A DNA stretch of 64,000 nucleotides, taken from assembly GCF_014196925.1 (NCBI RefSeq), contig NZ_JACIEN010000001.1, forward strand, positions 930,001 to 994,000, read 5' to 3'. A program made the position numbers and the translations under genes. Below, one piece after another: positions 47,967-61,493 of this stretch; within the stretch, counting starts at the first letter, position 1, and the number at the start of each line of letters is the position of its first letter. The notes under the pieces were generated by a model. It was given only the letters and a program-made list of their open reading frames with translations. It searched no databases and was not told where the DNA came from. The stretch comes from Chelatococcus caeni. Lineage in GTDB: Bacteria; Pseudomonadota; Alphaproteobacteria; Rhizobiales; Beijerinckiaceae.

Positions 47967-48146
47967 GGCGGCCTCCTCCTCTGATCTTGGTCCCTCTTAT
48001 ACGCGCATGGGCGGAAGCCTGTCAGCGCACTGGGCCGTGCGCCGATGCCAAGCCGGCGCCTCGGCCTCGCGCACACCCATTAGCCCGTCATTAAGCGGGC
48101 GCTGCTAGCGTCCAGCCATCTTTATGTCGAAAGCCCCGGAGCGCCC

Positions 48147-49523
48147 TTGCAACCGTCCCCGCAGCATCTCGAGCCGAAGGCTCCCGCGGGATGGCGCCGC
48201 GTGGCACAAAGGCTCGCCTCGCGCCAGGTGCTGTCGGCGGCGACCACGCTCGCCATTCGCGTCGCCTCGGCGGGTATCGGCTACGTGGTGCAGTTCGCGC
48301 TGGCGCGGGCCCTCGGCGCGTCGGAATACGGCATCTTCGCCCTCGCGTGGCTGTGGGTGACGATCGGCGGTTTCGCCGGCTGCTTCGGCTTCAGCCAGAC
48401 GGTGGTGCGCTTCCTGCCGCGCTATCGGCAGAAGGGCGACATGGCCCTGCACGACGCCTTCCTCACCGTCGGGCGGCGGGTCGTCGCCCTCGTCTCCGGC
48501 GTTCTCGCCCTTGTCGGCGCCGCCGTGACGCTTCTTGCCGGCGGCTGGGCCGGCGGGGTTGCGCCCTTCCTCATCGCGGCCGCCTGCGTGCCCGTCTTCG
48601 CCTATGCCGACCTGCTCGAGGGCACGGCACGCTCGCGCGGCTGGCTCGGCCTCGCCTTCATCCCGCCCTACATCCTGCGGCAGCTCCTCGTGCTCGGCCT
48701 GGTCGCCGGTGCCTACGGCCTCGGCTGGCCGGGCACGGCCGTCACGGCGATGGCCGCCACTTTCGTCGCGCTCGTCATCGCGGCGGCCGTCCAGCACGTC
48801 CTCCTCACGCGCCGGCTGCCCAAGGCGGACGTGCCGAAGAAGAACCTGCGCCGCGTGCTGCCGCTGTGGCTGCGCTCGGGTGGGCTCCTCTTTCTCGCCG
48901 ACGGCGCGCGGCTCCTGCGCACCTATGGCGACACCATCGTGCTCAGCGCCTTCCTGCCGCCGGCGGCGGTCGGCATCTACTTCGCCGCGACCCGTGTCGC
49001 CTCGGTGCTGGGCTTCGTCGAATATTCCGTCAGCGCCGCGATGGGCTACCGCTTCGCCACCATGGCGGCGAGCGGCGACCGGCATGCCCTCGCGCGCCGC
49101 GCGGTCCATGCGGCCGTCGTCACGCTGGTGCCGGTGCTCGTCGGCGGCCTCGTGCTGTGGCTCATCGGCGGCTTCGTCCTCGGCCTGTTCGGCGAGGCCT
49201 TCGTGGCCGGCACGGCGGTGCTGCCGCTGCTCATCGCCGCGCAGGTGCTCCGCGCCGCGGTCGGGCCGGCCGACGACCTGCTCAACGTGCTCGGGCGCGA
49301 GCGCTGGACCTTCATCGGCCAGCTCGCCGGGCTCGTCGTCAATGTCGCGACGGGGCTCGCCCTGGTGCCGGTCCTCGGCATCGTGGGGGCGGGGCTCGCC
49401 TCCCTCGCCGCCATGGCGGCGACGACGGCCATCCTCGGCATCGGCGCGTGGCTCCTTCTCGGCGGTCACCTGCGCGGCGGGACGGCATCGGGCGGCCGTA
49501 TCGGGCCGGGGGGGCAAGCGTGA
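48147..49523 (+). CDS. Polysaccharide flippase (Wzx/MATE-like membrane protein)
   Basis: The 458-residue protein has 12-14 hydrophobic segments and the polysaccharide-synthesis family pattern ('ASAGIGYVVQFALARALGAS', 'EYGIFALAWLWVTIGG', 'QTVVRFLPRYRQKGD'). Wzx proteins flip lipid-linked sugar repeats across the inner membrane. The start is a TTG at 48147, the first in-frame start near the domain. A CelD-type acetyltransferase follows, so this is a second polysaccharide mini-cluster 17 kb from the main exopolysaccharide locus, which lacks a flippase. Confidence 0.85.
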   Translation: MQPSPQHLEPKAPAGWRRVAQRLASRQVLSAATTLAIRVASAGIGYVVQFALARALGASEYGIFALAWLWVTIGGFAGCFGFSQTVVRFLPRYRQKGDMALHDAFLTVGRRVVALVSGVLALVGAAVTLLAGGWAGGVAPFLIAAACVPVFAYADLLEGTARSRGWLGLAFIPPYILRQLLVLGLVAGAYGLGWPGTAVTAMAATFVALVIAAAVQHVLLTRRLPKADVPKKNLRRVLPLWLRSGGLLFLADGARLLRTYGDTIVLSAFLPPAAVGIYFAATRVASVLGFVEYSVSAAMGYRFATMAASGDRHALARRAVHAAVVTLVPVLVGGLVLWLIGGFVLGLFGEAFVAGTAVLPLLIAAQVLRAAVGPADDLLNVLGRERWTFIGQLAGLVVNVATGLALVPVLGIVGAGLASLAAMAATTAILGIGAWLLLGGHLRGGTASGGRIGPGGQA

Positions 49524-49567
49524 TCGGGGGATCGGGACTGAGGAGCATGCCGGGTTCGGGGGAGGGA

Positions 49568-50752
49568 ATGATGAGAGTCGCATTTCACGGAAGCACGCAT
49601 CCGCCCAATGCCACCTACCGATGCGTCATGACGACGGTGGCGGACCTGCTGCCGCACCGCGAAGCCTGGGAGAGGCTGGCGAAGTCGGCGGTCGAGCCCA
49701 ATCCGTTCTATGAGCCGGACGCCTTGCTGGCGGCCGCCCGCTATGTCGAGGGGGGCACGCTCTGGGTCGTCGCCATCTGGCGCGACGGGAGGGAAGGGGG
49801 CGAACTCGCCGGGCTGTTCCCGCTGCAGTTCGGCGCCCTGAGGCAGGGCGTCCTCTGGCCGCTGCCGAGCCTCTACGTCAACCACATGTTCTCCGCCACC
49901 AGCGCGCCCCTGATCTCCGAAAGCGATCCGGAAGGCGTGTGGGAAGCCTTCCTCGGTGATCTCGGCAACCTCTGCCGGGGCGGCGCGGTCCTCAAGTGCC
50001 CCCGCCTGCCGCGCGGGCGCGGCGCGTCGATCGCGCTCGAGAACGTCATGGCCAGGCAGGGCCTCAGCCACGCATGGCTGTACGGATACACGCGGCCGGC
50101 CGTCGAGAGCGACCTCTCCTACGACGCCTATGCCGCGCGCTATTCGCCCAAGCGCCGGCGCAACCTGCGCCGCGCCGAGCAGCTTCTGGCATCCCAGGGG
50201 GAGGTGACCTTCCACAGCGTCCGGGGGCCGGGGCCCGAGGCGGCGCGCGCCTATGCGGATTTCCTCGCCCTCGAGGCGGCCGGCTGGAAGGGGGCCGCAG
50301 GCACCGCCCTCGCCAAGAGCGAGGCCACCCAGGGTTTCGGCGAGCACCTGTTCGGGCCGCAGCGCGTGGCCGATGGCGTCGCCTTCGACGTGCTGGCCGT
50401 CGCCGGCCGGGCCGTGGCGATCAACGTCAATCTCGTGCGTGGCGGCGTCGTCTATGCGGCCAAGAGCGCCTATGACGAGAGCCTGTCGCAGGCGAGCCCG
50501 GGCACGCTGCTCGATCTTCACCTCCTGCGCCGCACGCTGGACGAGAAGGCTTACGCGCGGCTCGATTCCTGCGCCCAGCCCAACCATCCGCTCGCCGCCT
50601 ACTGGCTGGAGGAGCAGGAGGTCGGTGCCGTATTCCTCGCCACGACGGCGAGCACGCCGCGCTGGTATTTCGACATGATGCTCCTCACCGTGCGCCAGAC
50701 ACGGCGCCTGCGCGAGCAGGCGAAGGAGCTGATCGAGCGCTTCTGGCAGTAG
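49568..50752 (+). CDS. CelD/BcsL-type GNAT acetyltransferase (second copy)
   Basis: A 394-residue protein with the CelD layout: an N-terminal domain with 'LPHREAWERLAKSAVEPNPFYEP' and a GNAT core with 'YSPKRRRNLRRAEQLLASQG' and 'VAINVNLVRGGVVYAAKSAY'. It resembles the protein at 29096-30283 in architecture but not in detail. ATG 49568 or 49571 follows GGGGGAGGG; ATG 49547 is also in frame. It starts 45 bases after the flippase gene and is probably cotranscribed. Likely role: acylation of a polysaccharide precursor (inferred). Confidence 0.82.
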   Translation: MMRVAFHGSTHPPNATYRCVMTTVADLLPHREAWERLAKSAVEPNPFYEPDALLAAARYVEGGTLWVVAIWRDGREGGELAGLFPLQFGALRQGVLWPLPSLYVNHMFSATSAPLISESDPEGVWEAFLGDLGNLCRGGAVLKCPRLPRGRGASIALENVMARQGLSHAWLYGYTRPAVESDLSYDAYAARYSPKRRRNLRRAEQLLASQGEVTFHSVRGPGPEAARAYADFLALEAAGWKGAAGTALAKSEATQGFGEHLFGPQRVADGVAFDVLAVAGRAVAINVNLVRGGVVYAAKSAYDESLSQASPGTLLDLHLLRRTLDEKAYARLDSCAQPNHPLAAYWLEEQEVGAVFLATTASTPRWYFDMMLLTVRQTRRLREQAKELIERFWQ

Positions 50753-50804
50753 GCGACGGAAGGCGGGCCGGCGCGCCGGCCCGCGAGCGCCCGCCGGCCG
50801 GTCC

Positions 50805-51587
50805 TCAGAGCTCGCCCGCCTTGAACTTTTCCCACATGTCCGCCGTGCCGTAGAAGGCGTTGCGGTCGACGTCGCCCGTCACGCCCGGTACGCGGCCCGT
50901 GGTGGTGAACTGCCAGAAGCTCCAGCGCCGGCCGTTGTAGCGTTCCTCCGGCTCGGCGGCGACGGAGCGCAGCCAGAAGTGATAGCCCGGCAGCTCGTTC
51001 TCCAGCACCTCCTGGTGGAAGGTGATGTCGGTGTAGATGATGGGCCGCTTGCCCGTATGCGCCTCGAGCTCGGCCAGCATCAGCCGGATCTTTTCGAGCG
51101 CCACCTCGCGCGGCACCTTCTGCGGGCAGGTCTTGGAATGGCCGTTCCACTCGACGTCGAGGACGGGCGGCAGCGCGTCGGGGTCGTTCGGGATGTGTTG
51201 GCGGAACCACTGCGCCTGCTCGTGCGCCGGGCGGCACCAGTAGACGAAGTGATAGGCGCCGCGGGGGATGCCGGCCGCACGCGCTCCCGCCCAGTTCTTG
51301 TAGAAGCTCGGGTCGATGTGGTCGCCGCCCTCGGTCGCCTTGATGAAGACGAACTGGGTGCCGGCGCGCCGCACGGCCGCCCAGTCGATCTCGCCCTGCC
51401 AGCGCGACACGTCGATGCCCTGGATCGGGTAGCGGTGCGCCTTGGCAACGCCGGGATGCGGCTTGCGATCGCCCTTGTCGGGATAGAACGTGTCGATGGA
51501 GGAGCAGGCGACGAGGGCGAGGGCGGTGAGGGAGGTGACGGCGAGGCGGCGGAGCATCGGGCGGCGGGCGCTCATTGGAAGGGACAT
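50805..51587 (-). CDS. Glycoside hydrolase family 25 muramidase lipoprotein
   Basis: A lipoprotein signal with lipobox 'LVACSS' precedes a GH25 (Lyz1/Chalaropsis-type) domain. It has the opening 'IQGIDVSRWQGEIDWAAVRR', 'FVFIKATEGGDHIDPSFYKN' and the catalytic Asp-x-Glu in 'PPVLDVEWNGH'. The enzyme cleaves the N-acetylmuramyl backbone of peptidoglycan in the periplasm or outside the cell. It has 260 residues. GH25 enzymes are frequent in phages but also in bacterial envelopes; the lipoprotein signal favours a cellular role here. Confidence 0.9.
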   Translation of the reverse strand: MSLPMSARRPMLRRLAVTSLTALALVACSSIDTFYPDKGDRKPHPGVAKAHRYPIQGIDVSRWQGEIDWAAVRRAGTQFVFIKATEGGDHIDPSFYKNWAGARAAGIPRGAYHFVYWCRPAHEQAQWFRQHIPNDPDALPPVLDVEWNGHSKTCPQKVPREVALEKIRLMLAELEAHTGKRPIIYTDITFHQEVLENELPGYHFWLRSVAAEPEERYNGRRWSFWQFTTTGRVPGVTGDVDRNAFYGTADMWEKFKAGEL

Positions 51588-51623
51588 GCCGCGACGATTC
51601 GTTTCAATAGATTGACGAACCCT

Positions 51624-53027
51624 TTACGACAGCCCGAACCACAGGGTGGCGATCCCCAAAAAGGCGAAGAACCCGATCACGTCCGTCGTCGTCGTCACGA
51701 AGGGGCCTGACGATACGGCGGGGTCGACCCCGAGCCGGTTCAGGGTCAGCGGGATGAGGATGCCGCCCAGCGCCGCCACCGACAAGACGGTGAGGATGGC
51801 GAGGCCGATGACGAAGCCGAGGTCGCGGATGCCGAACCACATCACCGCCACCGTGCCGAGGATGATGGCGAAGCCGACGCCGTTGCAGATGCCGACCGCG
51901 ACCTCGCGGCGGATGATGCGCCAGGTGTTGGAGCGGCGTAGCTCCTGCGTCGCGAGCGCGCGCACCGTCACCGTCATCGTCTGCGTGCCGGCATTGCCGC
52001 CGATGGAGGCGACGATCGGCATGAGGACGGCGAGCACAACCATCTGCTGGATCGAGGCCTCGAACAGGTGGATGACATTGGCCGCCACGATGGCCGTGAT
52101 GAGATTGGCGAAGAGCCACGGAAAGCGGCTGCGCACCGTGTACCAGATGGTATCCGACAGCTCCTCGTCGCCCTTGACGCCACCGAGCGCCTTGAGGTCC
52201 TCGTCCGCCTCCTCCTCGATGACGTCGACGATATCGTCGATCATCATCACGCCGACGAGGCGCTTGGCCTCGTCGACGACGGCGCAGGAGACGAGGTTGT
52301 AGCGCTGGAACAGCCGCGCCGCCTTCTCCTGGTCGTCGGTCGCCTCGATGAGGTGCTGGTCCTCGTTCATGACGTCGCTGATCTTCACCGGCCGCTTGGT
52401 GCGCAGAAGGCGGTCGAGCGGCACCGTGCCGATCAGCTGGTAGGAAGGGTCGACGACGAAGATCTCGTAGAAGGTGTCGGGCAGGTCCTCGGTGTCGCGC
52501 ATGTAGTCGATGGTCTGCCCCACCGTCCAGAACGGCGGCACGGCGATGAACTCCGTCTGCATGCGCCGCCCGGCCGAATCCTCCGGATAGTCCAGCGAGC
52601 GCTGCAGCGCCACGCGCTCGGGCGGCGGCAGTTGCCCGAGCACCTCGGCCTTGTCGGCCTCGTCGAGGTCCTCGAGAATGTAGACGGCATCGTCGACGTC
52701 GAGCTCGCGCACGCCCTCGGCGATGTTGGCGTTCGGGATGCTCTCGAGCAGCTCCTCGCGGATCGCGTCGTCGACCTCGGTGAGGGCCGCGAAGTCGAAG
52801 TCGCTGCCGAGCAGCGCGACGAGCCGCGGGCGGTCGTCATAGTCGAGCGCCTCGATGAGGGCGCCGAGATCGGCCTCGTGGAGCGGGGCGGCGAGGCGGC
52901 GCAGATCTTCGGCATCGCCGTCGGCAATGGCCTCGGAGACGCTTCCCAGGAAGCTCGGATTGACGTTGCCTTCCTCGTCCCGGAACGCGAGCGCCTCGGG
53001 CGCCGTCTCGTGCTCGACGTTCACCAT
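51624..53027 (-). CDS. mgtE: Magnesium transporter MgtE
   Basis: MgtE is a gated Mg2+ channel of the inner membrane. The cytosolic N domain ('LHEADLGALIEALDYDDRPRLVALLG'), paired CBS domains ('IFVVDPSYQLIGTVPLDRLL', 'AVVDEAKRLVGVMMIDDIVDVI') and five C-terminal membrane helices are all visible. The pore region contains 'VLAVLMPIVASIGGNAGTQTMT'. At 467 residues it is full length. Magnesium bound to the CBS domains closes the channel in characterised homologues. It lies 36 bases upstream of the muramidase gene. Confidence 0.96.
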   Translation of the reverse strand: MVNVEHETAPEALAFRDEEGNVNPSFLGSVSEAIADGDAEDLRRLAAPLHEADLGALIEALDYDDRPRLVALLGSDFDFAALTEVDDAIREELLESIPNANIAEGVRELDVDDAVYILEDLDEADKAEVLGQLPPPERVALQRSLDYPEDSAGRRMQTEFIAVPPFWTVGQTIDYMRDTEDLPDTFYEIFVVDPSYQLIGTVPLDRLLRTKRPVKISDVMNEDQHLIEATDDQEKAARLFQRYNLVSCAVVDEAKRLVGVMMIDDIVDVIEEEADEDLKALGGVKGDEELSDTIWYTVRSRFPWLFANLITAIVAANVIHLFEASIQQMVVLAVLMPIVASIGGNAGTQTMTVTVRALATQELRRSNTWRIIRREVAVGICNGVGFAIILGTVAVMWFGIRDLGFVIGLAILTVLSVAALGGILIPLTLNRLGVDPAVSSGPFVTTTTDVIGFFAFLGIATLWFGLS

Positions 53028-53160
53028 GCTGATCCGCCCGCTGGTGTGAGGTTCGACGCCCTTCTAGGTGCGGTCCCTGCGGAAGACAACCGCCCACACG
53101 CGGCTTTGTTGCACGATCGAGGCCCTGTGGCCCGGCTGCCTCACGGGCGAAGGCGGCGTC

Positions 53161-53704
53161 TCACAGGCCGAGCTGCGGCCCGCGCGGCGCCGTGCCGCCG
53201 ACGACGAGCACCCAATAGTCGCGCCCGCCCGCCCGGGCACGGGCGAAGCCGATGTTAGTCGCGCCCGCCCGCCCGGGCACGGGCGAAGCCGATGTGGGAG
53301 GCGGGGTTCTGCAGCATGTTCCGGCGGTGCTCCGGCGAGCGGCGCCAGTCCTCCATCGCTTCCTCGAGGGAGCGCTGTCCCATGGCGATGTTCTCCGCCC
53401 CGTGCGTGAAACGCCGCCCGGTCCCGTCCATGCGGCTCCAGAACGAGCCGGCGGCCTCGTGCGAGAGCACATCCTTCTCGGCCATGGCGCGGGCCTGCTG
53501 CCGCGCCGCCGCATTGAGCGCCTCGTCCGGCGTCACCGGCCCGAGGCCGCTCGCGGCACGAAAGCGCGAAACCGCGCCCGCTGCCGCCGGGGCGGCCTCC
53601 GAGGAAACGGTTTCGACGCTCTGGCGCTTGGAGGCGGCCATGGTGCAGGCACTGAGCGCGAGGGCGAGCGAAACGAGCAGGGCAGGGATCTTCATGAAGG
53701 TCAT
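53161..53704 (-). pseudogene. CAP/SCP-domain lipoprotein, frameshifted by a 40-bp tandem duplication
   Basis: The gene starts at 53704 with a lipoprotein signal (lipobox 'LALSAC') and encodes a CAP-superfamily domain ('FRAASGLGPVTPDEALNAAA', 'HGAENIAMGQRSLEEAMEDW', 'HRRNMLQNPASHIGFARARA'). A perfect 40-bp duplication at 53216-53295 shifts the frame and creates a TAA just after 'GGRD', ending the protein at 53255. Beyond the duplicate, the original frame continues as 'GGRDYWVLVVGGTAPRGPQL' to a stop at 53161. The lost part is the last beta strand of the CAP fold. Deleting one copy restores a 167-residue protein. The truncated form (149 residues) may still be made. Confidence 0.82.
53216..53295. 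repeat. Perfect 2 x 40-bp tandem duplication
   Basis: The 40 bases 53216-53255 are repeated identically at 53256-53295, without any mismatch. Each unit contains the GC-rich run CGCCCGCCCGCCCGGGCACG. Because 40 is not a multiple of three, the duplication shifts the reading frame of the CAP-domain gene. Confidence 0.97.
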
Positions 53705-53943
53705 CGGCAGGGTGGGGAGGGAGGAGAGCCCCGATCCATGTCCGACGTTGCCGGCCTCTTTGTGGCAAGGCTCGGCGAAAACGCGGGCCTGCGGGAAGCC
53801 GTCGGCTCACCGATGAACGGCAGGGGAGAAAAATGTGGTGGCCGGCTGCACGGGCGTTGGCCGGCCAGTCCTCCGACTGGAGCTCAAAATTCTCAGGTGA
53901 TTGAAAAATGATCGGCGACTTGTGATCGGTTGTCCGCGGCTGG

Positions 53944-54159
53944 CTAGCCAACGGTTCGAATGGTCAGTGTGAGACTGCTTTCGTCTTCCTCAATTTCCGC
54001 ATCGAGGTAATCGATTGCATCTTGATTCATGTAAAGAAAGTGAATGATTCGCCCATAGGCCGCGTCAGGAATGTCGGTGGCTATTTCCGCCATCGCGCGA
54101 CTCTTGTCGTCGGTCTTCTTCCAAAAGATTATGGCGTCCATGACTTCGTCGAACGTCAT
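53944..54159 (-). CDS. 71-residue protein coupled to luxI
   Basis: The start ATG (54159-54157) overlaps the luxI stop codon as ATGA, with GAGGGG seven bases upstream, so translation is coupled to LuxI. The protein is acidic and helical at first ('MTFDEVMDAIIFWKKTDDKS', 'PDAAYGRIIHFLYMNQDA') with an acidic stretch 'DAEIEEDESS' and a short C-terminal beta segment. I recognise no family. GC content by eye is near 50 percent, well below the surroundings. A role in quorum sensing, for example as a modulator of LuxR or LuxI, is inferred from coupling only. Confidence 0.75.
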   Translation of the reverse strand: MTFDEVMDAIIFWKKTDDKSRAMAEIATDIPDAAYGRIIHFLYMNQDAIDYLDAEIEEDESSLTLTIRTVG

Positions 54160-54806
54160 AAGTGCAGCCCCTCGGAATGCTGAACTGGTTCTCGCGTTGA
54201 TCTGTCCCGGCCGTCGAGCGGGGCAAGGACCGGTCCCGTCAAGCCGCCGACCGTTCGGACCTTGCGCAGGGCCTGAGGAGCAATCTCGATCAGCCCGGCC
54301 ATGGTCATGGCGCCGTCCACCTCATCGGGCAGCCCGAGAGGCTGAACGCGGAACCCGGCCTCATGAAAGCGTGGCAGCCACCAGGTCTCGAACACCGCGG
54401 AGACGGCCTGCAATCCGTTCCGCAGGCCATATTCCTGCAGGGCAGCCATGAGTTCCATGTTGACGCGGCCGCCGCGAAACTCCTTCACCACGAAGAAGCG
54501 CGACCACTCCATGATGTCGGGGCCCTGGGGGATGCCGCGCTCGGCTGCCAGATGCGGAAAGACCTCCGACAGCATATGCGACCGGGTTGTGGGAAATAAT
54601 CTATGTCCACCGGCTATTCTGCCGTTTTCGATGGCAAGGAAATAGACCGTGTCCGCGGTGTCATAGCTGTCTTGTTCGATGCCGTTTCCTCTGTCCAGGT
54701 TCTGCCATTTTCGTTCATCGACGAAGATCTCGTGCCGGATGCGGTATGACCTTTCTATCATATCGCCGTATTTGTGCCTGTTTATCGCGTCTACGACGTG
54801 GATCAC
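54156..54806 (-). CDS. Acyl-homoserine-lactone synthase (LuxI family)
   Basis: The enzyme makes an N-acyl-homoserine lactone from S-adenosylmethionine and an acyl donor. All invariant family residues are present, numbered from the GTG at 54806: Arg24, Phe28 and Trp34 in 'YRIRHEIFVDERKW', Asp46 and Asp49, Arg69 in 'GGHRLFP', Phe83, Glu100 and Arg103 in 'IMEWSRFFV'. The GTG start, with AAGGGATA just upstream, begins the typical 'IHVVDAINRH'; an in-frame ATG at 54851 would add 15 atypical residues. The protein has 216 residues. luxR lies 81 bases upstream and an overlapping small gene follows. The acyl chain cannot be predicted. Confidence 0.95.
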   Translation of the reverse strand: MIHVVDAINRHKYGDMIERSYRIRHEIFVDERKWQNLDRGNGIEQDSYDTADTVYFLAIENGRIAGGHRLFPTTRSHMLSEVFPHLAAERGIPQGPDIMEWSRFFVVKEFRGGRVNMELMAALQEYGLRNGLQAVSAVFETWWLPRFHEAGFRVQPLGLPDEVDGAMTMAGLIEIAPQALRKVRTVGGLTGPVLAPLDGRDRSTREPVQHSEGLHL

Positions 54807-54870
54807 GGGTATCCCTTTTCCGCTGCGTTGTTCGCACGGAGAGGGAATCATAAAATTTATGGTTAATTAA

Positions 54871-54886
54871 TTGTACTTGTATGCAA
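54871..54886. promoter_or_regulatory. Weak dyad between luxR and luxI (candidate lux-type box)
   Basis: TTGTACTTGTATGCAA has imperfect dyad symmetry (TTG.A......T.CAA) in the AT-rich gap upstream of luxI. It is shorter and less regular than a classical 18-20 bp lux box, so it is only a candidate LuxR site. Confidence 0.25.
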
Positions 54887-54887
54887 C

Positions 54888-55604
54888 CTAGGGGTAGATG
54901 CAGCGCCGCTGCATGGCCATGACCACGGCCTGGGCCTTGGTGTTGGCGCCGAGTTTCTCGGCTGCGGTGCGAATGTGGTGGCCGATGGTCCTCGGCGTCA
55001 GCCCGAGGATTTCTCCGACCTCCAGAACCGTCTTGCCCCATGCGGTCAGCAGCAGCACGTCCTTCTCGCGGTCTGTCAGCTGAACCGACTGGGCCTTTCT
55101 CGTCTCGTCGACGACCCGGAGCCGTTCGGCCGCATACATCGTCAGAAGATGCAATCCGCGCCTTGCTTCACCCGTCAGCGACAGCGACGCGCCGGCGAAC
55201 GAGGCGCATCCGGTGCCGTCGAAGCCGTGCAGGGGGACGCTCCAGCCTTCCTTCAAACCATAGTCGCGCGCCGACGTCATGACGGTCCTGGACCGCCCCC
55301 TCGGGATCGGGCAGTCGCTCCAGAAGAAAGGGTCGTTCGTCTTGAAGCAATGCTCCGCGACTGGATCGCTGTCGATGAGGCGGTGCCGAGTATAGAAGTC
55401 GTACCACGGATCGGACCACCGCTTTGCGTAGATCATGTCGCGGAAGTTCTGATATTTATTGGGTATTCTGGTGAAGATGAAGTATGTGGCGCCATAGCGC
55501 TCCGCGAACTGCACGACACCGTTCATGATGGTATCGGTGTCGGTCGTCGATTCCAGGTCCTCGATCGATCTAAGGACTTCGGCGGCAACTGCTTCTCTGG
55601 GCAT
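54888..55604 (-). CDS. LuxR-type autoinducer-binding transcriptional regulator
   Basis: The 238-residue protein has an N-terminal autoinducer-binding domain and a C-terminal GerE-type helix-turn-helix ('LTDREKDVLLLTAWGKTVLE', 'IGHHIRTAAEKLGANTKAQ'). Ligand-pocket residues are visible in 'RWSDPWYDFYTRHRLIDSDP', including the Trp, Tyr and Asp-Pro conserved in TraR/LuxR, and Trp in 'PFFWSDC'. The ATG at 55604 has GGAGGGGGA seven bases upstream. The gene directly precedes luxI on the same strand, so the pair is a complete quorum-sensing circuit. A hairpin CGGGGC/GCCCCG (55620-55638) adjoins its ribosome site. Confidence 0.94.
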   Translation of the reverse strand: MPREAVAAEVLRSIEDLESTTDTDTIMNGVVQFAERYGATYFIFTRIPNKYQNFRDMIYAKRWSDPWYDFYTRHRLIDSDPVAEHCFKTNDPFFWSDCPIPRGRSRTVMTSARDYGLKEGWSVPLHGFDGTGCASFAGASLSLTGEARRGLHLLTMYAAERLRVVDETRKAQSVQLTDREKDVLLLTAWGKTVLEVGEILGLTPRTIGHHIRTAAEKLGANTKAQAVVMAMQRRCIYP

Positions 55605-56355
55605 CCGACCATCCCCCTCCGGGGCTGGAACGGCCCCGAGGCTGCTCTTAATTTTGCCGCATTTTATTAACGCCGTATTGATGTGGAATTCACGGGCGCA
55701 GCCACGCGGGGCAGGGGCGTTCTTGCGCCGGGCCGGTTTCGGCTTGTTATGACGTGCAAGATCAGAGCGTAGGGGGCGGGAGTGGCCGGGAATTGGCGGG
55801 AACGCGCGTCCTCGGGGCGCCCGAAGGGACCGCGCTTCAGGCGGACCTGACCGGGACCTTCAAGAGGCCGTTCCCGGAACAGGTCGCGTTCTTCCACGGG
55901 CAAGCTCGCCAATCTCGTGCCGACAAGCACGTGGCGCGACCTGGAGCGCGAGGCGCACGATTCGACCTTCATGGTGCCGGCGCCATGAAGGCGGACCTGC
56001 TCGCCGACCTCGCCGCGACCGTCGACAAGGCGGTCACGCAGGGGCTCACCCTCCGGCTGGCGTGCGCCATGTGATGCGCTCCCATGGCGATGCTGGGCGG
56101 GAGGAAGCACGCGGGCAGCGGGCCGTGACGGCGAACAATGTGCTGCGGCAAGCTTCGGCGGTCACCTTCCGGTGTGGCTTGCATCGCTTTTCTCGACCGT
56201 TTCCGCTCGAGGCAGCAGGGTCGGGTTTCGAGAATCCTCCGCCGGTCAGCGGCCGGGAGATGCGGTGCCTGCGATGAGTGAGTCTGCGAAGAGCGCGACA
56301 CGCGTCATGGACTTCATGATGCCTGGCGAGCGGAATGCTCTAGGTGTGAACGCCG
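55605..56355. other. Gene-poor stretch with phage remnant
   Basis: About 750 bases between luxR and the sugar dehydrogenase gene. The only coding relic I can support is the phage head-morphogenesis fragment at 55841-56053. The rest (55640-55840 and 56054-56355) has no convincing gene, RNA or repeat. Confidence 0.5.
55841..56053 (+). pseudogene. Remnant of phage Mu F/SPP1 gp7-like head morphogenesis gene
   Basis: Three short segments in two frames join into the N-terminal part of a phage minor head protein: 'ADLTGTFKRPFPEQVAFFHG', then 'GKLANLVPTSTWRDLEREAH', 'DSTFMV' in the shifted frame, then 'GAMKADLLADLAATVDKAVT' back in the first frame. An extra base in GGG at 55898-55900 and a compensating change near 55975 account for the shifts. 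The conserved remainder (PF04233-type core) is missing. The family match is from memory of homologous sequences. It marks the decay of a Mu-like prophage at this locus. Confidence 0.5.
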
Positions 56356-57870
56356 TCATTCGGCCGGGGCCGGAACCCGACCGTCTTCGGGACCGACGGC
56401 CGGCGCTATGTCGGTCTGCGGCGGCTCGGGCACTGCGCCTTCGGCGGGCGCTGCCCGACCGTTGGCCGGCGGCGCGCCCGGGTCCTGCGGCGCTGCTTCC
56501 GGGACCGTGGCGCTGGTGACGGGGTCGCTCGGCATCGGCTCCGGCGTCACCGAGCCGTCGGCGGCCGCGACGCGCCAGACCGTGTTGCCGGCGTCGTCGG
56601 CGATGAGCAGCGCGCCGGTGCCGTCGATGGCGAGGCCGACCGGCCGGCCGCGCGCCTCGTCGCCCTCGAGGAAGCCGGTCACGACGTCCCGGGCCATGCC
56701 GGCCGGGCGGCCGTTCTCGAAGGGAATGTAGACGACCTTGTAGCCGTTGAAGGCTCTGCGGTTCCAGCTGCCCCGGTGCCCGACGAAAGCGCCGTTGCGA
56801 TAAGCCTCCGGCATCGCCGAATTGTTGGTGAAGGCGAGGCCGAGGGCTGCGACGTGGCTGGAGAGCGCATAGTCCGGCTTGATCGCCTTTTCGACGAGAT
56901 CCGGACGCGGCGGCACGACCCGTTCGTCGACATGCTGCCCGAAATAGCTCCAGGGCCAGCCGTAGAAGCCGCCGTCCCGCACCGAGGTCAGATAGTCGGG
57001 CACGAGGTTGGGGCCGAGCTCGTCGCGCTCGTTGACTACCGTCCACAATTCCCCTGTTTCGGGATGGATGTTGAGCCCGTTGGGATTGCGCAGGCCGGAC
57101 GCGAAGATGCGCGCCGCGCCGGTCACGCGGTCGACCTGCCAGATCGCCGCGCGCCCTTTCTCGGCCTCCAGCCCGCGCTCGCCGGCATTGGAGTTGGAGC
57201 CGACGGAGGCGTAGAGAAAGCGGCCGTCCGGGCTGAGCGCGAGGTCCTTGGTCCAGTGATGGTTGATCGGGCCGCCGGGAAGCGGCGTCAGCACGGTCGG
57301 CCGCGCGTCGATCGCCGTCTCGCCGAGCCGGTAGGGATAGGCCAGGATGGCGTCGGCGGCGGCGACGTAGAGCGTGTCCTCGTACCACGCCACGCCGAAG
57401 GGCGAGTTGAGGCCGGTCAAAAGGTCGACGCGTTCATCGACCACGCCGTCGCGGTTGGTGTCGCGCAGGAGCGTGATGAGGTTCGTTTCCTTTTCGTCGC
57501 CGCCGCCACCGGCGGCCATGTCCATGATGAAGTCGCGAATGATGTCCTTCGGGCGGTTGAGCGGCTTGTCCGGAGGCGCCTTGGACTGGACGACGAGCAC
57601 GTCGCCGTTGGGCAGCGTGTGCACGGTGCGCGGATTGGCGAGATCCGTCGCATAGGGCGTGGCGACTAGATCCTCGGGGACGGCCGGCTTCTCGCCTTCA
57701 TGCCAGCCCACGACTTCCGCCACCTTGAGGTCCGGAAGCAGGTCGTTCCGCGGCGCGGGCAGGACGGGGTCGGGACCGTATTGCTGCGACACGTCGAAAT
57801 TCTCGTCGCCGCAGCCGGAGATCAGGAGAGCGGCACCGACGATTGTGGAGAGGGCGAAAGTTCTAGACAT
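56356..57870 (-). CDS. Soluble-type PQQ-dependent sugar (sorbosone/glucose) dehydrogenase lipoprotein
   Basis: A lipoprotein signal ('LLISGC') leads to a six-bladed beta-propeller of the GSDH/L-sorbosone dehydrogenase family: 'ATPYATDLANPRTVHTLPNG', 'VDLLTGLNSPFGVAWYEDTL', 'GPINHHWTKDLALSPDGRFL', 'ASGLRNPNGLNIHPETGELW' and 'FVGHRGSWNRR'. The last 65 residues are a low-complexity Pro/Ala/Glu tail. It would oxidise a sugar in the periplasm with PQQ; no PQQ synthesis genes are in the window. The DUF2231 gene upstream overlaps its start by 8 bases. Length 504 residues. Confidence 0.88.
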   Translation of the reverse strand: MSRTFALSTIVGAALLISGCGDENFDVSQQYGPDPVLPAPRNDLLPDLKVAEVVGWHEGEKPAVPEDLVATPYATDLANPRTVHTLPNGDVLVVQSKAPPDKPLNRPKDIIRDFIMDMAAGGGGDEKETNLITLLRDTNRDGVVDERVDLLTGLNSPFGVAWYEDTLYVAAADAILAYPYRLGETAIDARPTVLTPLPGGPINHHWTKDLALSPDGRFLYASVGSNSNAGERGLEAEKGRAAIWQVDRVTGAARIFASGLRNPNGLNIHPETGELWTVVNERDELGPNLVPDYLTSVRDGGFYGWPWSYFGQHVDERVVPPRPDLVEKAIKPDYALSSHVAALGLAFTNNSAMPEAYRNGAFVGHRGSWNRRAFNGYKVVYIPFENGRPAGMARDVVTGFLEGDEARGRPVGLAIDGTGALLIADDAGNTVWRVAAADGSVTPEPMPSDPVTSATVPEAAPQDPGAPPANGRAAPAEGAVPEPPQTDIAPAVGPEDGRVPAPAE

Positions 57871-58282
57871 GACGCGCTCCCCAGCGTCCGAACAGTCCGG
57901 TGACCAACATGGCGAAGACGGTCAGGATCGACACCGTCATTCCCCAGGGGACAACCGCCGTCCACCCGTCGGCTGTGTGGATGAAATTGTTGAGCGTGGC
58001 GAGCAGCAGCACGACGATGCCGCCGCTCACCGCCGGCCAGGAGAGCCATATCCGGCGGAAGGCCCAGTCGAGCAGGAGGGCGATTGCCGCGAGGATGCCG
58101 AAAACCAGCCCCGCAAACAGCAACCATTCGGAGAAGTGGAGCCAGAGCAGGTTCAGCGTGTGCCAGTAGGCGATGTCGGTCAGAACCGTGAGGCTGAAGC
58201 AGGCGATCGGAAATGAAAGAAGGACGGCGTGGACCAGATCCATCGCCGAGGCCCGCGCGGGCCATGGGCGGTCGTACGTCAT
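57863..58282 (-). CDS. DUF2231 family membrane protein
   Basis: The 139-residue protein has four membrane helices ('LVHAVLLSFPIACFSLTVLT', 'WLLFAGLVFGILAAIALLL', 'AVSGGIVVLLLATLNNFIH' and 'MTVSILTVFAMLVTGLFG') and a His pair typical of DUF2231. It overlaps the sugar dehydrogenase gene, with which it is often paired in Hyphomicrobiales. It may act as a membrane electron-transfer partner, but this is inference. Confidence 0.87.
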   Translation of the reverse strand: MTYDRPWPARASAMDLVHAVLLSFPIACFSLTVLTDIAYWHTLNLLWLHFSEWLLFAGLVFGILAAIALLLDWAFRRIWLSWPAVSGGIVVLLLATLNNFIHTADGWTAVVPWGMTVSILTVFAMLVTGLFGRWGARHV

Positions 58283-58662
58283 CGGCTCACCTGCCGTGTG
58301 GTTTCGGTCTAAAGGGGGATACTAATGGGAGCCGCTTTTGTTCCCGTCATCTTCGCATCAACGGGCGGCCGGCGAAAAAACCAGACGGTGCAGTACAGCA
58401 GATCGGCGACACGGCTATGTTTTCGATCGTTCTGCTCTACGTGCTTGCTGCGACCGTAATTTGCACTTTGCGCCCGGGCCGCGAGCAGCGGACCTGCGAG
58501 GCGCGATCGGCGCCGTCAACGTGAGCAGCTGAACGAGGGCAGCCTGCCACTCCGGCTTGCGCGCCAGAGCGGTGGAATCCACCACAGTTGCAGCTGGCCC
58601 GGCCAAAACAAAAACGGCGATCCCTTGCGGGATCGCCGTTCGGAGCCTTCGGCTCGAAATCG
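58283..58662. other. Intergenic stretch before tRNA-Leu
   Basis: No supported gene in 380 bases. It holds the leftward terminator of tRNA-Leu (58605-58640). A 35-codon hydrophobic frame at 58417-58524 lacks a ribosome site and is not called. Confidence 0.5.
58605..58640 (-). terminator. Intrinsic terminator of tRNA-Leu
   Basis: On the minus strand AACGGCGATCCC and GGGATCGCCGTT form a 12-bp stem around a 4-base loop, followed by TTTGTTTTG. Confidence 0.88.
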
Positions 58663-58747
58663 TGGTGCGGTCGAGAGGACTCGAACCTCCACTCCTCTCG
58701 GAACTACCACCTCAAGGTAGCGCGTCTACCAGTTCCGCCACGACCGC
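58663..58747 (-). tRNA. tRNA-Leu (GAG)
   Basis: The reverse strand gives acceptor GCGGTCG paired with CGACCGC, discriminator A and encoded CCA (58663-58665). The anticodon stem CTACC/GGTAG has the loop TTGAGGT, giving anticodon GAG. A long variable arm, as in class II tRNAs, is present. Total length is 85 bases. Confidence 0.96.
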
Positions 58748-59069
58748 AACCGCTTCGTGGAGACGTCCGTCTCCGGAAGCGGGCTGGGATGTAACAGATC
58801 GATGTCGGCTCCACAAGTGCCCCGTTGCGGCCTGTGCAAAAACTCCCCACAGGTGCTGCACGGGCCAGCTCCAGCGGCGCTCTCCCCGGCGTTTTCCTCG
58901 TTCCCTCAGGCTATTCCGCCGGGACTGCGGGGCAGTGCCGCTACTTTCGAACTTGTCGAACGCCAAATCCCGCCCCACTTTCTGCGGCGGAGCCGCGCGG
59001 TTGCGTCGGCTTGCCACGGGATGGGGACGACGTTCGTTGCTGAAGGCGAGAGACGAGTTGGGCGGCCTG
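58748..59069. other. Intergenic stretch between tRNA-Leu and lipB
   Basis: Contains a compound inverted repeat right behind the tRNA 5' end: GGAGACG/CGTCTCC (58759-58774), nested within CGCTTC/GAAGCG (58751-58781). Beyond it I see no gene or named element. Confidence 0.5.
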
Positions 59070-59747
59070 ATGCTGCCGCAGGCGGGCGCACCGCCCGTCG
59101 AATGGCGCATCAGCGACGGCTATGTCGGCTATGAGGAGGCCGTGGCGGCGATGGAGGCGCGCGTCGCGGCGATCGCGGCGGGCGAGGCGGCCGAATGCGT
59201 CTGGCTGCTGGAGCATCCGCCGCTCTATACCGCCGGGACCTCGGCCAACGACGCCGATCTCGTCGAGCCGGGGCGTTTCCCCGTCTTCCGCTCCGGCCGC
59301 GGTGGCCAGTTCACCTATCACGGGCCCGGCCAGCGCGTGGCCTATGTCATGCTCGACCTCTCGCGGCGCACGCAGGACCTGAGGGCCTTCGTCGCGGCGC
59401 TGGAGGCCTGGCTGATCGCCACGCTCGACGGCTTCAACGTGCGCGGCGAGCGGCGCGAGGACCGTGTCGGCGTCTGGGTGCGCCGGCCGGAGAAGGGCGC
59501 GGCGGCTGAGGACAAGATCGCCGCCATCGGCATCCGCGTGCGCCGCTGGGTCACCTTCCACGGCATCAGCCTCAACGTGGAGCCGGACCTTTCGCATTTC
59601 TCCGGCATCGTGCCTTGCGGCGTGCGCCAGCACGGCGTCACGAGCCTCGTCGATCTCGGCATCCCCGTCACCATGCCGGAGGTGGATGCCGCGCTCAGGG
59701 CGAGCTTCGAGGACATCTTCGGGCCGGCCGTTCCCGTCCCGGCCTGA
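59070..59747 (+). CDS. lipB: Octanoyl-ACP:protein transferase LipB
   Basis: LipB moves octanoyl from ACP to lipoyl domains, the first step of endogenous lipoate synthesis. Active-site Lys149 ('EDKIAAIGI') and Cys183 ('[12 protein letters not shown]') are present, with '[20 protein letters not shown]' as the substrate-binding region. From ATG 59070 the protein has 225 residues; a TTG 15 bases earlier behind a purine-rich stretch is possible. Longer in-frame readings run into the tRNA-Leu region and are rejected. lipA is not in the window. Confidence 0.94.
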
Positions 59748-59885
59748 AGCCGGCCCGTCCGTCGGTCCCGGAAACACCCTCTCCAAATGCGCCTTGGCAT
59801 CGGCGCACGTTGCCGGATCGCGGGCACGGCGCCATAGTCCGGCCAACGGCCCGCACTGCGGGCGACAGCCGTTGGGGAGGGACGC

Positions 59886-61493
59886 GTGCCGGCCATCGAG
59901 AGCGCGATCGATTCGACATCCGCCGATTTTCGCGCCAATGCCGCCGCCTGGGCCGAGCTCAGGGCGGAACTCGACGCCCGGCGGGCCGAGGTGGCGGCCG
60001 GCGGGCCGGCGAAGGCGCGCGAGCGGCACCTGGCGCGCGGCAAGCTCCTGCCGCGCGAGCGCGTCATGCGCCTCATCGATCCAGGTTCGCCCTTCCTCGA
60101 GATCGCGCCGCTTGCGGCCTTCGGCATGTATGGCGATGCCATCCACGGCGCCGGGCTGATCGCGGGCATCGGCCGGGTCGAGGGCCGTGAGGTCATGATC
60201 GTGTGCAACGATTCGACCATCAAGGGCGGCACCTACTACCCGATGACGGTGAAGAAGCACCTGCGCGCCCAGGAGATCGCGCGCGAGAACAGGCTGCCCT
60301 GCATCTATCTGGTCGATTCGGGCGGGGCCAACCTGCCGCACCAGACGGAGGTGTTCCCCGACCGGGAGCATTTCGGCCGCATCTTCTACAACCAGGCGAC
60401 GCTGTCCTCGCTCGGCATCCCGCAGATCGCCGTCGTCATGGGCTCGTGCACGGCCGGCGGCGCCTATGTGCCGGCCATGTCCGACGAGACCATCATCGTG
60501 CGCCGGCAGGGCACCATCTTCCTTGGCGGCCCGCCGCTGGTGAAGGCGGCGACCGGCGAGGTCGTCTCGGCCGAAGACCTCGGCGGGGCCGACGTGCACG
60601 CCCGCCAGTCCGGCGTCGCCGACCATTACGCGGTGGACGACGTGCATGCGCTCGCGCTCGCGCGCCGCATCGTCGCCAATCTCAACACGATGAAGAAGAG
60701 CGACATCGCCCTGACGACGCCGGCCGAGCCCGTCTACGACCCGGCCGAGCTCGAGGGCCTCGTGCCCACCGACCTCAAGAAGCAGTACGACATCCGCGAG
60801 GTCATCGCCCGGCTCGTCGACGGTTCCGAGTTCGACGAGTTCAAGCGCCTCTACGGCACGACGCTGGTGACCGGCTTTGCCCGCATCTGGGGTGTCCCCG
60901 TCGGCATCATCGCCAACAATGGCATTCTTTTCTCCGAATCGGCGCTGAAGGGCGCCCATTTCATCGAATTGTGCTGCCAGCGCCGCATCCCGCTGCTCTT
61001 CCTGCAGAACATCTCCGGCTTCATGGTGGGGCGGCAGTACGAGGCCGGCGGCATCGCCAAGGACGGGGCGAAGCTCGTCACGGCGGTGGCCTGCGCCCGC
61101 GTGCCCAAGATCACGGTGCTCGTCGGCGGCTCCTTCGGCGCCGGCAACTACGGCATGTGCGGGCGGGCCTATTCGCCGCGCTTCCTCTTCACCTGGCCCA
61201 ACAGCCGCATCTCGGTGATGGGCGGCGAGCAGGCGGCGAGCGTGCTCGCCACCGTCAGGCGCGACAACATCGAGGCCGAGGGCAAGACGTGGAGCGCGGA
61301 GGAGGAGGAGGCCTTCAAGGCGCCCATCCGCGACCGCTACGAGGAGGAGGGCAACCCCTACCACGCCACCGCGCGCCTGTGGGACGACGGCATCATCCTG
61401 CCCTCCGAGACGCGCCGCGTGCTGGGCCTCGCCTTCTCTGCCTGCCTCAACGCCCCGGTCGAGGAAACGCGTTTCGGCGTGTTCCGGATGTGA
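59886..61493 (+). CDS. Acyl-CoA carboxylase beta subunit (methylcrotonyl-CoA carboxylase type)
   Basis: A full-length carboxyltransferase (535 residues) transferring CO2 from biotin to an acyl-CoA. It shows '[20 protein letters not shown]', '[20 protein letters not shown]', '[20 protein letters not shown]', '[16 protein letters not shown]' and '[14 protein letters not shown]'. The '[19 protein letters not shown]' type sequence and overall pattern fit methylcrotonoyl-CoA carboxylase beta (MccB), which would follow isovaleryl-CoA dehydrogenase (46794) in leucine breakdown. The biotin-carrying alpha subunit is not in the window. The start is GTG 59886. Geranyl- or propionyl-CoA substrates are alternatives. 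Confidence 0.86.

Follow-up and report, generated by a model that had tools for sequence, protein, structure and literature searches.

A perfect 40-bp tandem duplication close to the 3' end of a gene for a CAP-domain lipoprotein was found in the window (the whole 64-kb stretch of Chelatococcus caeni DNA that was analysed), and it is probably a recent, lineage-specific loss-of-function mutation that is revertible in principle. In the proposed course of events, a single event would have copied 40 bp head to tail, the junction between the copies would have made a TAA stop codon, and the +40 shift would have moved the final 18 codons into another frame, so that the protein, cut just before its last beta strand, would not fold and the gene would be a young pseudogene. 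Contraction from two copies to one by slippage would be possible; regaining two copies would take a fresh rare event, and the duplication is best read as a one-way loss able to revert, not as a switch. It is known from one assembly of one strain.

The repeat and the reading frame of the CAP gene

The features of the locus, all on the reverse strand, are as follows.

53255..53704 (-): truncated CAP-domain (PF00188) lipoprotein ORF, 149 aa (ORF list, profile match, relatives' alignment)
53256..53295 (-): 40-bp unit, copy 1 in gene order (sequence and Tandem Repeats Finder)
53216..53255 (-): 40-bp unit, copy 2 in gene order, identical to copy 1 (sequence and Tandem Repeats Finder)
53255..53257 (-): stop codon TAA formed by the copy junction (sequence, alignment with relatives)
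53161..53217 (-): stranded 3' end of the CAP gene (YWVLVVGGTAPRGPQLGL plus stop), no longer in frame with the 5' part (relatives' alignment, translation)

Read directly from the sequence, 53216-53295 is an exact head-to-tail repeat of two 40-bp units, and Tandem Repeats Finder returned the same interval with a period of 40, 2.0 copies, 100% matches and no indels, which confirms the perfect duplication that an earlier note on this DNA had described. The duplication is far above chance expectation, a rough calculation with a per-base match of 0.28 predicting about 5e-18 exact adjacent 40-mers in 64 kb. The 64-kb window contained no further exact tandem array whose unit measured 10-400 bp. Sampling of 60 further stretches of the same genome (1,200,000 bases, 97 of them N, taken from contigs C1, C2, and C6 of 19) gave 16 bp as the longest exact tandem unit, and a genome-wide habit of short duplications finds no support in this sample; the longest unit in 20 stretches from two relatives (400,000 bases) was 14 bp. 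Clustered exact 14-16-bp tandem repeats were seen in the same genome near 565251-565826 of contig C1 (L120 15251-15826).

The copy junction reads GAC TAA CAT, and in the TAA (53257-53255) the first two bases end copy 1 and the third begins copy 2. The earlier note had stated that the second copy shifts the frame and gives a stop after GGRD, with the lost end still encoded intact downstream. Translation and the relatives' alignment agree on the frame shift, the position after GGRD and the downstream YWVLVVGGTAPRGPQLGL; the placing of the stop inside the second copy does not hold, as it straddles the junction. The last 18 codons and their stop are intact and out of frame by +40, which is not a multiple of three.

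The PF00188 match covers residues 44-147 (profile positions 3-107 of 117) with an E-value of 7.2e-19, and its score of 69.2 bits against a curated cut-off of 21.1 places the product in the CAP superfamily by profile. The first ATG is missing in C. sambhunathii, which makes the second (53695-53693) the more likely start. LSAC stands at residues 17-20, with a cysteine that is invariant in an alignment of five sequences; this may be a lipobox motif and the N-terminus a putative lipoprotein signal, and the gene product is predicted to be a surface or envelope lipoprotein.

The lost strand and the age of the duplication

Of 60 related genomes, 50 gave a CAP-like match; 30 loci were among the matches listed, and removal of the window's own left a homologue set of 29 (L007-L035). 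The earlier note had claimed the loss of the last core strand and had proposed a comparison of the C-terminus with homologues as a check. The comparison bears the claim out: 28 of the 29 homologues among the matches listed extend at least 8 residues beyond the truncation point, and the sole homologue without an extension (L019) stops at its own contig end. Counted from the printed tails, an aromatic-tryptophan pair opens the last strand in 27/29 homologues (among the matches listed), with YF in its place in L027, while a stricter scripted strand pattern matched 18/29 (likewise among the matches listed).

Modelling of the full-length C. sambhunathii protein by AlphaFold2 with five sequences (pLDDT 85.5, pTM 0.76) placed the last strand at E147-157, beyond the end of the window protein, so that the truncation falls at the start of this strand. 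Compared with CAP structures, the model was closest to Borrelia BB0689 (4d53, TMt 0.84), with GAPR-1 (4aiw) at TMt 0.62. The window protein, modelled with the same five sequences, gave a pLDDT of 49.2, a pTM of 0.30 and no strands, which suggests that the truncated protein fails to fold, although a low AlphaFold2 score from five sequences is no measure of stability. A complete alpha-beta-alpha sandwich with the last core strand is thus absent from the window protein. It ends before the last beta strand and is therefore most probably unfolded, which would make the gene a young pseudogene, and from the homologues and the modelling together I infer a loss of function. Among known proteins, the gene product resembles BB0689 in its PF00188 domain and in the fold of the full-length relative's model, and the RSP1200 product of Rhodobacter sphaeroides as a bacterial CAP/SCP protein (a family-level comparison with no orthology claimed); unlike both, the window copy is without its last strand. 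Elsewhere the genome has another CAP-like gene, with an uninterrupted frame and a C-terminal YWALIVASP (L054 9875-10393), so that the loss may be tolerable.

The close relatives compared were C. sambhunathii DSM 18167 and C. composti DSM 101465, with one genome per species. As would be expected for a pseudogene created by duplication, the orthologues of both sister species (L004, L005) have one copy, an open frame and a full C-terminus, with amino-acid identities of 86% (C. sambhunathii) and 84% (C. composti); DNA of a third congener (G002) was only 67% identical over the aligned part. The single copy in both close relatives agrees with the earlier note in calling the event recent. Both window copies carry a two-base change, CAC to CGT (H to R), that is seen in neither relative, and the duplication would therefore be younger than this change unless the copies were homogenised later. 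The two copies have not diverged (0 differences). The neighbouring MgtE and GH25 genes have a dS of 0.17 to C. sambhunathii (~0.085 per lineage), and copies as old as the split from this species would be expected to show ~6.8 differences (80 sites x 0.085) where none was observed; a rough model with unconstrained copies gives the duplication, at 95%, an age of less than about 0.44 of that split.

Upstream of the stop, the window lineage had 7 private amino-acid changes, C. sambhunathii had 9 and C. composti had 13, and the comparison with C. sambhunathii gave a dN of 0.068 and a dS of 0.457 (versus the dS of 0.17 in MgtE and GH25). Judged by these values, this part of the gene shows neither decay nor relaxed selection. 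Such an undecayed 5' part fits a young loss, and it equally fits an assembly error or a gene that is still used. The 81 bases at 53158-53238 are identical base for base with C. sambhunathii. The idea that the 3' end is unusually close to this species was rejected, as identical runs of up to 125 bases occur nearby. As far as compared, the duplication appears to be recent and specific to the window lineage among the congeners.

Alternative readings of the repeat

The earlier note had offered three readings, a reversible switch, a strain-specific loss and an assembly artefact. A strain- or species-specific loss is the most likely of these on a comparison with two congener species of one genome each, an assembly artefact ranks second, and a switch is unlikely. 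Phase variation was the first reading examined and was dropped, given a junction that carries a stop and a one-copy form that has no repeat. The idea of a slipped-strand contingency locus is that the 40-bp copy number toggles the protein or its tail reversibly within the population, and genes for surface and envelope proteins are often phase-varied. The locus shares with such systems a head-to-tail repeat of exact, adjacent copies, a unit length that is not divisible by three, an intact tail downstream, and a predicted surface or envelope lipoprotein as product. Unlike them, it has two copies and a stop built by the copy junction; any array of two or more copies therefore ends at the first junction, and three or four copies would be of no help. 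The full protein comes from one copy only, and whereas a contingency locus keeps its repeat tract in both on and off states, the one-copy 'on' form has no 40-bp repeat to slip on. The duplication borders are also without microhomology (the left flank ends CCAA and the unit ATGT; the unit begins TAG and the right flank GGG), and around the site in C. sambhunathii, which like the other close congener has one copy, there are only 5-base direct repeats, 30-51 bp apart. A search for the junction pattern with two mismatches allowed found it in 1/149 family genomes, the window's own, and was effectively informative for close congeners only, because DNA divergence at family distance makes most of the 149 genomes uninformative. 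Exact tandem repeats of this size can contract by slippage, through RecA-independent deletion, and two copies may still fall back to one. Duplication is the basis of a reversible state in Burkholderia thailandensis, where the phase variation is described as IS-mediated and RecA-dependent (PMC9946442); no insertion sequence was seen at the 40-bp repeat. Taken together, an on/off or tail-switching tract is hardly credible here.

An assembly or consensus error deserves more weight, though I consider it doubtful. Under this reading the genome really carries a single copy, and the assembly entered a 40-bp overlap a second time in GC-rich sequence that is hard to read. A doubled overlap is possible because the unit has a GC content of 77.5% (68.5% in the window) and the assembly is a draft of 5.43 Mb in 19 contigs; besides, self-folding of the doubled stretch is slightly stronger than that of shuffled sequences (z -1.77, 11/200 shuffles as good), the CAP gene is otherwise undecayed, and the 1.2-Mb sample contains one run of 97 N. 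A 21-base word is common to the two 300-base flanks of this run, abutting the gap on the right and lying 266 bases away from it on the left, which is evidence neither for nor against doubled overlaps. On the other side, the repeat lies in the interior of a 1.83-Mb contig, the window is free of N, and the 1.2-Mb sample holds no other exact tandem unit of >16 bp, so that doubled overlaps do not form a general pattern; the absence of similar cases and of N counts mildly against an error. Ordinary reads are also long enough to span 80 bp. The undecayed sequence could likewise mean that the truncated 149-aa lipoprotein is functional and kept by selection: private amino-acid changes are not in excess (7 vs 9 and 13), and the open part keeps residues that are invariant across the five sequences, including L80-S81-H82, A103-E104-N105, and H126-R127-N129. 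The extension of nearly all homologues beyond the truncation and the poor score of the model without the last strand speak against this, and the event appears to be too young for undecayed sequence to imply selection, which makes a functional short protein very improbable.

Origin of the duplication and the rearranged upstream region

For the preferred reading of a recent loss by duplication, a reasonable route to the extra 40 bp would be the filling in of a staggered break and subsequent end joining. In animal cells, small tandem duplications are described as arising when staggered breaks are filled in and then end-joined, a mechanism set out for human and mouse cells with Pol alpha-primase, CST, and 53BP1 (PMC8355091). 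In contrast to the human and mouse factors named there, Ku alone was sought here, and a Ku (PF02735) gene is present in the genome. The case resembles gene inactivation by small tandem duplications of tens of bp in its single extra exact copy, which shifts the frame and brings a stop, in the one-copy state of near relatives, and in the lack of microhomology at the borders. To judge from the border bases, microhomology in the form seen here was not used in the formation of the duplication, and its lack shows which routes were not needed, not which route was used. Replication slippage at the GC-rich stretch may be an alternative route. A strong DNA hairpin as the cause found no support, with a z of -1.77 for the doubled stretch and of about 0 for single units (the two relatives' stretches in the single-unit test begin one base before the unit). 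Literature searches returned no close bacterial precedent with exact units of tens of bp, and no claim is made that none is in print.

The body of the CAP gene may have a history of its own. The stretch 53296-53720 differs from C. sambhunathii by 14.3%, compared with 5.6% in 48000-53215 and 6.4% beyond 58600. A change of site classes among the window, C. sambhunathii, and C. composti was placed best at 53264-53279 (support 53202-53335, 0/1000 shuffles), an interval that overlaps the repeat, with sites treated as independent and the relatives' single copy placed arbitrarily against the two window copies; pairwise distances alone gave a wider boundary of 53111-53548, with its best point at 53520. 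In a check of 26 blocks, 53296-53720 had the highest distance to C. sambhunathii (0.143; 0.029-0.089 in the 25 others) and also the highest ratio of this distance to the other two (0.89; 0.26-0.82 in the others), the ratio falling just outside the range of the other blocks, some of which show mosaicism too. The stretch is possibly a recombinant tract, and the border is treated as a lead because of site independence, arbitrary copy placement and the marginal ratio. The 40-bp duplication could then be the scar of an imprecise recombination, in which the foreign 5' three quarters of the CAP gene were taken up and the left crossover wrote a 40-bp overlap twice, with either the window lineage or C. 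sambhunathii as recipient. I regard this as quite unlikely. If the window lineage was the recipient, the foreign part was possibly imported together with a 4.9-kb LuxI/LuxR block upstream of the gene, which contains the following features.

Within 53711-58595: 71-aa ORF without a Pfam match
54156-54851: LuxI-type autoinducer synthase
54888-55604: LuxR-type regulator
56356-57870: glucose/sorbosone-dehydrogenase-like protein
57863-58282: DUF2231 membrane protein

The 4.9-kb block (53711-58595) is missing at the corresponding place in C. composti, which is collinear on both sides, and BLAST homology to the relatives ends 6-12 bp before the first ATG of the CAP gene. A search of 149 family genomes, with two candidates scored per genome, gave the following among the matches listed. 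In the two close congeners the matches were confined to the CAP gene, the far edge and a single short, weak stretch; in the third congener (G002), a different contig matches part of the LuxI-type gene at 67%; in other genera, it was the dehydrogenase gene that gave the strongest matches. In C. sambhunathii, 58611-61493 is inverted (L056 9648-12529) and adjoins the CAP gene. The three Chelatococcus species thus have three arrangements upstream of the gene, and the missing block in C. composti together with the inversion in C. sambhunathii marks the 5' side of the CAP gene as a rearrangement point.

As found, the duplication matters little, adding one further case of a small tandem duplication that breaks an envelope gene. 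If recombination at the border were true, it would tie bacterial short tandem duplications to imprecise crossover at imported DNA. The locus also illustrates a simple test for telling a contingency locus from a scar, namely whether the repeat is still present in the 'on' state and whether higher copy numbers restore the frame.
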